Below, in pieces: positions 12,917-16,512 of a stretch of DNA of 64,000 nt; the first letter of the stretch is position 1, and every line of letters starts with the position of its first letter. The position numbers and the translations under genes were made by a program. Source of the DNA: Mycobacterium saskatchewanense (GTDB lineage Bacteria > Actinomycetota > Actinomycetes > Mycobacteriales > Mycobacteriaceae); NCBI RefSeq assembly GCF_010729105.1, contig NZ_AP022573.1, forward strand, positions 5,518,001 through 5,582,000. The letters are read 5' to 3'. Under the pieces are notes generated by a model, which was not told the origin of the DNA, did no database searches, and worked only from the letters and a program-made list of their open reading frames with translations.

Positions 12917-14377
12917 TTGCCGAACGTAATTGAGCCTGGGACGAGCGCGCGGCCGCAGGCGGGCCGAGCGGACAAGCTGGCGTCGACGGTCGCCCGCCGC
13001 ATCGAGGCGGACATCGTCCGCCGCGGCTGGACGGTCGGCGAATCGCTGGGTTCCGAACAGGCTCTGCAACAACGCTATGGCGTGAGTCGATCGGTGCTCC
13101 GCGAAGCCGTCCGCCTCGTGGAGCACCACCAGGTGGCCAGGATGCGCCGCGGGCCCGGTGGCGGGCTGCTGATCTGCGAGCCCGACGCCGCCCCCGCCAC
13201 CCGCGCCGTCGTCATCTATCTCGAATACCTGGGCACCACGCTGGATGACCTCCTCAATGCACGGCTGGTGCTCGAGCCCCTCGCGGCCGCCCTCGCCGCG
13301 GAGCGGATCGACGAGGCCGGCATCGACCGGCTGCGAGCGGTGCTGCGGGCAGAAGAGCACTGGCGGCCGGGGCTGCCCGCGCCCCGCGATGGATTCCACG
13401 TCGCGTTGGCCGAGCGATCGAAAAACCCCGTGTTGCAGCTGTTCATCGAGATCTTGATGCGGCTCACCACCAGGTACGCCCTCCAGTCGCGCACCGAGTC
13501 GGCCACCGAGGCCATCGAGGCGGTCGACCACATGCACAGCGACCACACCGCCATCGTCGCCGCGGTGACCGCGGGCGACGCGGCTCGGGCCAAGACGCTC
13601 ACCGAGCGACACGTTGAAGCGGTGACGGCCTGGCTGCGGGAACATCACCCGGGAAGCCGGGCACGGGTCCAGCGGGCACCGCGGCGACATGACATGGGGC
13701 CGCGGGGCAAGCTCGCGGAGTTGCTCGCGGCCAGCATTGGCGACGACATCGCCGCCGGGGGCTGGCAGGTCGGTTCCGTGTTCGGCACCGAGACGGCGTT
13801 GATCGAGCGGTACCGGGTCAGCCGCTCGGTCTTTCGGGAAGCCGTGCGGCTGCTCGAGTATCACTCGATCGCCCGCATGCGTCGTGGGCCGGGCGGCGGG
13901 CTGGTCGTCACCAAGCCCGAGGCCCAGGCGAGCATCGACACGATCGCCCTGTACCTGCAGTACCGCAGCCCGAGTCGCGAAGACCTGAGCTGCGTCCGCG
14001 ACGCGATCGAGATCGACAACGTCGCCAAAGTCGTCCGCCGGCGCACCGAAGCCGAGGTGGCCACCTTCCTCGGGAACCATCGGTCGACCGATGCCGTCGG
14101 CGACGTGCGCAAGGCCGGCGTCGACGAGTTCCTGTTCCATGTCGGCCTGGCGCAGTTGGCCGGCAACGCGTTGCTAGACCTGTTCCTGCGCATCATCGTC
14201 GAGCTGTTCCGGCGGCACTGGTCCAGCACGGGTCAGGCTCTGCCGACCCCGGACGACGCGGCGGCCGTCGAGCACGCCCACACGCGGATCGTGGAGGCGA
14301 TCGAGGCCGGCGACGACAGCCTGGCCCGTCACCGCATCCGGCGCCACCTGGATGCCGCCGCGTCGTGGTGGGTGTAG
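12917..14377 (+). CDS. Tandem-duplicated FadR-type GntR regulator
   Basis: 486 residues made of two complete GntR modules. The first winged helix (about residues 20-90; LQQRYGVSRSVLREAVRLVEHHQVARMRRGPGGGL) and FCD-like effector domain are followed by a second pair starting near residue 255 (LIERYRVSRSVFREAVRLLEYHSIARMRRGPGGGL). The two wHTH segments are nearly identical. Single-chain double FadR proteins probably bind DNA as intramolecular pseudodimers (inference). The M. tuberculosis counterpart is Rv3060c (about 490 residues). It starts at TTG 12917, nine bases after the thiolase-like gene, so it may be co-transcribed and govern this fatty-acid cluster. Confidence 0.88.
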   Translation: MPNVIEPGTSARPQAGRADKLASTVARRIEADIVRRGWTVGESLGSEQALQQRYGVSRSVLREAVRLVEHHQVARMRRGPGGGLLICEPDAAPATRAVVIYLEYLGTTLDDLLNARLVLEPLAAALAAERIDEAGIDRLRAVLRAEEHWRPGLPAPRDGFHVALAERSKNPVLQLFIEILMRLTTRYALQSRTESATEAIEAVDHMHSDHTAIVAAVTAGDAARAKTLTERHVEAVTAWLREHHPGSRARVQRAPRRHDMGPRGKLAELLAASIGDDIAAGGWQVGSVFGTETALIERYRVSRSVFREAVRLLEYHSIARMRRGPGGGLVVTKPEAQASIDTIALYLQYRSPSREDLSCVRDAIEIDNVAKVVRRRTEAEVATFLGNHRSTDAVGDVRKAGVDEFLFHVGLAQLAGNALLDLFLRIIVELFRRHWSSTGQALPTPDDAAAVEHAHTRIVEAIEAGDDSLARHRIRRHLDAAASWWV

Positions 14378-15850: not shown

Positions 15851-15954
15851 TAAAGTCACCGCTCGTGCGTCTTCTTGAGCGTGCGGTAGTAGCCAGCACC
15901 CGCAGCGGGGTCTGATCCAGACCGACCCCCCGCTGCGGGTCGAATGCTGCTGGC
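15851..15954 (+). ncRNA. LEU-type leader (attenuator-like RNA element)
   Basis: A -10 box TAAAGT (15851-15856) lies 8 bases before a GTG that opens a 16-codon peptide. Nested complementary segments follow: GCCAGCA 15892-15898 with TGCTGGC 15948-15954, then a perfect 13-bp stem 15898-15910 with 15928-15940, and a small inner hairpin GGTCT/AGACC 15909-15913 with 15919-15923. The peptide stop codon lies inside the structure, as in attenuation. Actinobacterial leuA genes are known to carry a conserved structured LEU element with Leu codons, and this fits that class. Base pairing was read by eye, not folded by program. Confidence 0.65.
15865..15915 (+). CDS. Leader peptide with tandem rare Leu codons
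   Basis: GTG start, 16 residues MRLLERAVVASTRSGV, stop TGA. Residues 3 and 4 are CTT CTT, unusual in a GC-rich genome that prefers CTG/CTC, and two GTA valines follow. The GTG lies 8 bases after a TAAAGT -10 element, so translation is probably leaderless. It would serve as a leucine (perhaps general branched-chain) sensor for the following gene. It is too short to be found by ordinary gene calling. Confidence 0.6.
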   Translation: MRLLERAVVASTRSGV

Positions 15955-15990
15955 GTCGGTCGCTCCTGCTGATCAGAGAAGACCGACACC

Positions 15991-16512
15991 GTGACTCTTA
16001 CCTCTCCGGACTTCGACACCGTCAACGTCGACTCGCCCCGGCGCACTGCTGCTGACTGGTTCGCCGACCATTTCGGCGTCGCCCTGCCGCGGGGGCTGCG
16101 CGAGGGCGCCGGCGACCTCACGTGGGACGCCTTCGTCGCCGCGTACGCCCCGACCTCCGGCCCGATCCGGCTGGGCCACTGGGCGTGCACCGACCCCGAC
16201 CGGCCCGCCGGCCGCCTCGGGCCGCAAGCCCGCAACTTTCGGGCCGTGATCGCCGTCGGCGACCGCATCGCCACCTCGACCGCCGCGGCGGGAGGGCCCG
16301 TCGCGGCCCTCACCGCGATGCTGCACGAGCGCGGGTTCACCCTCGAGACGCTGAAGTTCCACCAGGTGCGTTCGGCGGGCTGCACCGCCACATTTATCCA
16401 CGGCAGCAACGGAATCCGCGCCGAGTGGGCAATGGGTGTGGCCGACGACGCGACACAGTCGGCCCTGCGCGCCGTCATCGCCTGCGCCAACCGGCTGGCC
16501 GGCGCTGCCTGA
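15991..16512 (+). CDS. Stand-alone LeuA allosteric (regulatory) domain protein
   Basis: 173 residues. The C-terminal two-thirds (ARNFRAVIAVGDRIATSTAAAGGPVAALTAMLHERGFTLETL, then TATFIHGSNGIRAEWAMGVADDATQSALRAVIACANRL) resembles the leucine-binding LeuA dimer domain of 2-isopropylmalate synthase. The N-terminal part (SPRRTAADWFADHFGVALP) resembles the linker before it. The TIM-barrel catalytic domain is absent. It is preceded by a LEU-type leader, so it is probably leucine-responsive. It could modulate LeuA by hetero-oligomerisation, or be an orphan leucine-binding protein. GTG 15991 follows a GAGAAG Shine-Dalgarno. Confidence 0.7.
   Translation: MTLTSPDFDTVNVDSPRRTAADWFADHFGVALPRGLREGAGDLTWDAFVAAYAPTSGPIRLGHWACTDPDRPAGRLGPQARNFRAVIAVGDRIATSTAAAGGPVAALTAMLHERGFTLETLKFHQVRSAGCTATFIHGSNGIRAEWAMGVADDATQSALRAVIACANRLAGAA

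Follow-up and report, generated by a model that had tools for sequence, protein, structure and literature searches.

A LEU-type leader with tandem rare valine codons in front of a stand-alone LeuA-type regulatory domain gene in Mycobacteriaceae

What does an attenuator-like leader sense when the gene behind it encodes only the regulatory end of LeuA (2-isopropylmalate synthase)? The question is raised by a compact unit at positions 15851-16512 of the window, which is the whole 64,000-nucleotide (nt) stretch analyzed here, taken from the 6.0-Mb (megabase) chromosome of Mycobacterium saskatchewanense (NZ_AP022573.1, 5,518,001 to 5,582,000). All features discussed below lie on its forward strand. 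A preliminary description had reported a -10 box, a 16-codon leader peptide with tandem CTT codons, stems and a downstream gene, all of which we observed again, and had read the unit as a LEU-type attenuator answering to leucine. The LEU kinship and the stand-alone domain held up on analysis, but leucine as the main signal did not. We propose instead, with confidence that is about evenly balanced, that a LEU-derived, valine-tuned leader controls a stand-alone LeuA-type regulatory subunit, whose gene we call the orphan gene.

The codons of the leader open reading frame (ORF) set valine against leucine. This ORF (15865..15915; 16 codons plus TGA, VRLLERAVVASTRSGV followed by stop) carries tandem CTT leucine codons at 15871..15876 and tandem GTA valine codons, the proposed stall site, at 15886..15891. 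The family does not conserve the former. Among 136 leader peptides of orphan genes from the family, Val-Val was present in 129, tandem Leu was present in 42 (or in 46, with longer in-frame starts for L006, L029, L048 and L065), and 17 had no leucine at all. The valine codons were highly restricted: in 89 distinct ORFs the pair was GTA-GTA 73 times and GTA-GTT 16 times, and never included GTC or GTG, while in ten genes of this genome GTA accounted for 1.3% of valine codons and GTC plus GTG for 288 of 300. Most leaders that could be read ended in VVA(S)TRSGV-stop or LVVxRRSGV-stop, the typical forms being ..ILVVxRRSGV-stop outside Mycobacterium and ..LVVATRSGV-stop or ..AVVASTRSGV-stop within it.

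The leader of leuA itself differed at exactly this place. All 29 readable Mycobacterium leuA leaders (28 read by script and L122 by eye; L127, cut by a contig end, was excluded) contained LLL, mostly as ..LLLGRRDGV-stop; outside the family, eight leuA leaders had at least three leucines by eye. Counted 7 to 9 places upstream of the leader stop, the codons are Leu-Leu-Leu in leuA leaders and mostly Leu-Val-Val, or Val-Val one place earlier, in orphan leaders. The genome's own ilvB leader (L242:1202-1261) ends MLVVISRRVGA-stop, with codons CTC GTA GTA ATT, and because it shares the GTA GTA codons we describe the orphan leader as a LEU scaffold carrying ilvB-type stall codons. Downstream of the SRRVGA-stop of this ilvB leader there is a GGGGGTTTTTT run. 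In the available part of its description (PMC13236596), the ilvB1NC transcription attenuator of M. tuberculosis likewise has L-V-V stall codons, then RR, then a short end before the stop, and replacement of its LVVI codons by AAAA abolished induction.

The scaffold matched that of leuA. We trained a covariance model, R1, on 76 orphan leaders only and scanned the whole genome, scoring 150 of 5048 first-look candidates, with E-values that are rough. R1 matched its own locus at 125.4 bits. It also matched the leader of the genome's leuA, about 2.2 Mb from the orphan gene (G000:C1:3295366-3295494, up to the leuA start codon), at 42.6 bits with an E-value of 2.4e-6, which bears out the LEU relationship; a third match was an antisense echo of the orphan leader (E 0.5). 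Twelve further R1 matches were fetched by hand, and eleven of them lay upstream of leuA or a second leuA, the remaining one (L224) being an orphan-type leader. By sequence, the orphan leader and the LEU element of actinobacterial leuA (Seliverstov et al. 2005, PMC1262725) are paralogues. As described in the available part of that paper, the LEU element too has a leader ORF with its stop codon in a hairpin loop and a pseudoknot in which arm A pairs with an arm B further downstream, and it directly precedes its gene. The orphan unit departs from it in that the gene is a stand-alone regulatory domain and not leuA, LLL has become mostly LVV with GTA codons, the base stem joining the leucine codons to the Shine-Dalgarno sequence is not conserved, and a further pairing, B:C, occurs by the start codon, a pairing that was not looked for in leuA leaders.

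The layout of these pairings in the window is as follows. Hairpin P2 (15898..15940; 13 base pairs (bp), arms 15898-15910 and 15928-15940) holds in its loop the leader stop codon and, 4 nt past it, arm A (GACCGAC, 15920..15926). Arm B (GTCGGTC, 15955..15961) has two alternative partners, A in the pseudoknot or arm C (GACCGAC, 15981..15987), which is the same word as A and lies between the Shine-Dalgarno-like AGAGAAG (15975..15981) and the start codon. Stem P1 (15886..15953; arms 15886-15893 and 15946-15953) contains the GTA codons in its 5' arm and forms seven of eight pairs, two of them G-U. We examined these pairings in 76 orphan leader sequences with 500 shuffles as control. Taken jointly, P1, P2 and A:B were paired in 94.1% of cells (30-57% in slid controls) and contained 33 double-changed cells, a number reached by 0 of 500 shuffles; the count of further pair types was less striking, being reached by 38 of 500. 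The most constrained part of the leader was the A:B pseudoknot, paired in 99.8% of 525 cells, with double changes at three of seven pairs and 9 double-changed cells that none of the 500 shuffles equaled, so that the covariation across relatives suggested earlier as a check on the element was indeed found. P2 was 96.6% paired over the 12 pairs counted. P1 alone was 84.5% paired (inner five pairs 95.9%, outer three 61.1%), and within its four GUAG pairs the changes that gave another standard pair fell exclusively on the non-coding 3' side. B:C was 87.1% paired, with double changes at two of seven pairs and 9 double-changed cells, reached by 1 of 500 shuffles, and in 41 of the 76 leaders A and C differed at no more than one of their seven positions.

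The leader ORF begins 8 nt downstream of the -10 box TAAAGT (15851..15856), and for this reason its mRNA is probably leaderless. Across the family, of 125 distinct leaders, each with one preselected start, 112 had a TANNNT that ended 6-10 nt upstream of that start (7-8 nt in 103), as did 14 of 2500 random places. PMC8079986 reports a leaderless leuA leader, without a typical terminator, in Streptomyces lividans as well.

The orphan gene (15991..16512) encodes a 173-residue protein consisting of the LeuA linker II and regulatory domain. The claim that it is a stand-alone LeuA regulatory region was sustained: the protein matches only LeuA residues 435-643, at about 26% identity, and compared with the C-terminal region of LeuA (PDB 3fig, 1sr9, 3hpz) it has neither the catalytic TIM barrel nor subdomain I, and its leucine site appears altered. 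Fold and profile similarity to the LeuA regulatory fold (LeuA_dimer, PF08502) are present, at a profile score of 15.9 bits, below the Pfam gathering cut-off of 24.9, and the predicted structure has a pLDDT (predicted local distance difference test) of 90. At the leucine site A536 is kept in 52 of 65 members and G533 in 63 of 65, while L535, V551 and Y554 are conservatively replaced in most of the 65 by I/V, I/T and F; A558 and the A565-A567 stretch are not kept and the loop is shortened, in a part where the alignment is uncertain. By these residues the leucine pocket appears partly changed. Citramalate synthase has a regulatory domain that binds isoleucine (PDB 3f6g, 3f6h), a crystallized part of a full enzyme and not the product of a stand-alone gene; identity to it is 13%. 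An isopropylmalate or homocitrate synthase identity does not fit, the 173 residues having no catalytic TIM barrel, and 'homocitrate synthase', attached to 8 of 120 listed relatives, is a misleading database name for a barrel-less protein. The best reading of the product is a regulatory subunit. LeuA itself carries this domain and consumes ketoisovalerate, from which valine is made; we therefore regard LeuA, acting at the ketoisovalerate branch point, as the likeliest candidate target.

The layout of the leader suggests how such a unit would work. The unit would have arisen, most likely in an ancestor of Mycobacteriaceae (the family in the GTDB sense), when copies of the LEU leader of an actinobacterial leuA and of the last, C-terminal third of an enzyme of LeuA type were set apart as a gene of their own. 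The probably leaderless leader ORF would be translated while it emerges. When charged Val-tRNA, or branched-chain amino acids generally, ran short, the ribosome would stall at the rare GTA codons and leave arm A free to form the A:B pseudoknot with P2, so that arm C and the ribosome-binding site would be open and the gene translated. With a good supply, the ribosome would read on to the stop codon, 4 nt upstream of A, and cover that arm; B:C would then pair and reduce access to the start site. A subunit acting on LeuA might in this way spare ketoisovalerate for valine during valine shortage. What the analysis establishes is the anatomy of the unit, its homology, its conservation and the change of codons, while its origin, the stalling, the direction of control, the ligand and the target are inferred.

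Several observations weigh against this reading or limit it. At least one leucine is retained in 119 of 136 leaders, so leucine may contribute to the signal, and it may add to it in the window's clade in particular because the window has both CTT CTT and a 7-bp pairing of that region with the Shine-Dalgarno sequence. Since GTAG is the 5' arm of P1, part of the GTA bias may come from P1 pairing. Val-Val was missing in seven of the 136 leaders (L002, L011, L029, L162, L163, L164, L180), and five of 141 yielded no peptide in our scan (L099, L100, L148, L174, L175), with L099 and L100 showing an apparent earlier stop at TAG. The leader motif was missed at 9 of 150 loci, eight of them from genus g3 plus L050, where a leader is nevertheless present on direct reading. 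The numbers of double-changed pairs and of pair types were not above shuffles for P1 (286 and 334 of 500 reach them) or for B:C (124 and 399 of 500). Pseudoknot-free folding of 107 leaders did not reproduce the proposed switch, giving B:C a mean probability of 0.64 with no ribosome, 0.70 when a ribosome occupied Val-Val and 0.68 when it occupied the stop codon. The ilvB1 attenuator has a Rho-independent terminator (PMC13236596, available part), whereas no terminator-like site was found at the orphan leader by a scan that also found none at the genome's ilvB. Because such a site was not seen and no T run follows P2, an effect through translation or Rho is likelier, though only likelier, than intrinsic termination. 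Changes to the leuA leader of Streptomyces coelicolor had some effect that did not fit classical attenuation, as reported in the available part of PMC1262725.

We considered whether the unit could be a plain leucine-responsive LEU attenuator, with CTT CTT as the sensor and the valine codons fixed merely as one side of P1. The window itself lends this some support, since CTT is rare (7 of 339 leucine codons in the ten genes) and the perfect 7-bp pairing of the CTT region with the Shine-Dalgarno sequence, which 6% of shuffles reach, resembles the published LEU base stem; P1 is conserved, and most leaders retain a leucine. Across the family, however, that stem was 51.2% paired, equal to shuffles, tandem leucine is a minority feature, the P1 changes are confined to the non-coding side, and Val-Val is written with GTA and GTT only. 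We therefore consider leucine as the sole signal unlikely. It was also conceivable that the element is a pseudoknot bound by a protein or responsive to another ligand, with the leader ORF translated but its codons sensing no amino acid. For leuA, a protein was put forward by Seliverstov et al. on the ground that leader changes in Streptomyces did not fit classical attenuation (PMC1262725, available part), and the strongest constraint does lie on A:B. Against this stand the gene-specific stall codons on a shared scaffold, LLL at leuA and mostly LVV at the orphan gene, the retention of rare GTA codons, and the recurrence of those codons in the genome's ilvB leader, whose LVVI counterpart in M. 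tuberculosis ilvB1 was needed (PMC13236596, available part); this explanation, too, seems improbable to us. That the gene is a functionless, degenerate remnant of a second LeuA with its leader carried along would account for the lost catalytic part, the partly lost leucine pocket and the low identity to LeuA, but is very hard to reconcile with a gene present across the family as one tree group, with near-invariant residues of its own (F123, H124, Q125, W146), a confidently predicted fold and a covarying leader.

The orphan gene was found in about 163 of 201 family genomes (E 1e-9 or better), and its proteins form one group in the tree. R1 leader matches were found in 136 of 151 family genomes; the 15 missed include all ten of genus g3, which we guess to be Corynebacterium-like. 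The g3 orphans L171, L173 and L176 have a diverged leader; by eye, a P2-like hairpin and an A:B-like pairing are still recognizable in L171 and L176, without Val-Val.

Further observations concern leuA and the surroundings of the unit. L215, L221, L230, L231 and L233 have a second LeuA whose identity to LeuA is about 51-56% and which has a LEU-type leader of its own. By eye these leaders were mixed (LLL in L215, L221 and L230, FLL in L231, LVL in L233), and no such Leu/Val run was seen by eye in the second-LeuA leader L232. The regulatory end of the second LeuA in L215 and L230 (GPVQLKDW, TQQSIGS) resembles the orphan protein by eye; tblastn at 1e-4 on the second-LeuA loci found the orphan in L221 and L231 only. 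In L222, from the genome of L123, LeuA residues 554-569 were matched twice in the leuA ORF, about 60 residues apart, which recalls the repeat insertion of the M. tuberculosis leuA gene, and L124 has a similarly long leuA ORF. In the window the unit is flanked by a MEDS/HATPase protein gene and a P450 gene. The end of a similar P450 gene adjoins the orphan gene, by eye, in the Mycobacterium loci L084, L086, L087, L088, L089, L091, L092 and L094, so this neighbor is kept within the genus. Elsewhere in the window, 12917-14377 is a single ORF in which GntR and FCD each matched twice, making it a double transcription regulator within a single chain.

The finding suggests that the family that includes Mycobacterium has a regulator of branched-chain amino acid synthesis of which our searches found no description. 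A leader with rare valine codons suggests a regulator tuned to valine supply, and if this is true the unit would be a naturally occurring example of an attenuator whose amino acid was switched by exchanging codons while the RNA scaffold stayed. The orphan gene also offers a second gene for probing the mechanism of the LEU element, left open in the 2005 paper. A more specific version, which we hold only tentatively and as doubtful on balance, is that the codon change made a valine-gated attenuator whose free allosteric subunit associates with LeuA in trans and curbs its consumption of ketoisovalerate, the remodeled pocket binding an amino acid other than leucine; were that so, valine shortage sensed by the ribosome would restrain leucine synthesis after translation.
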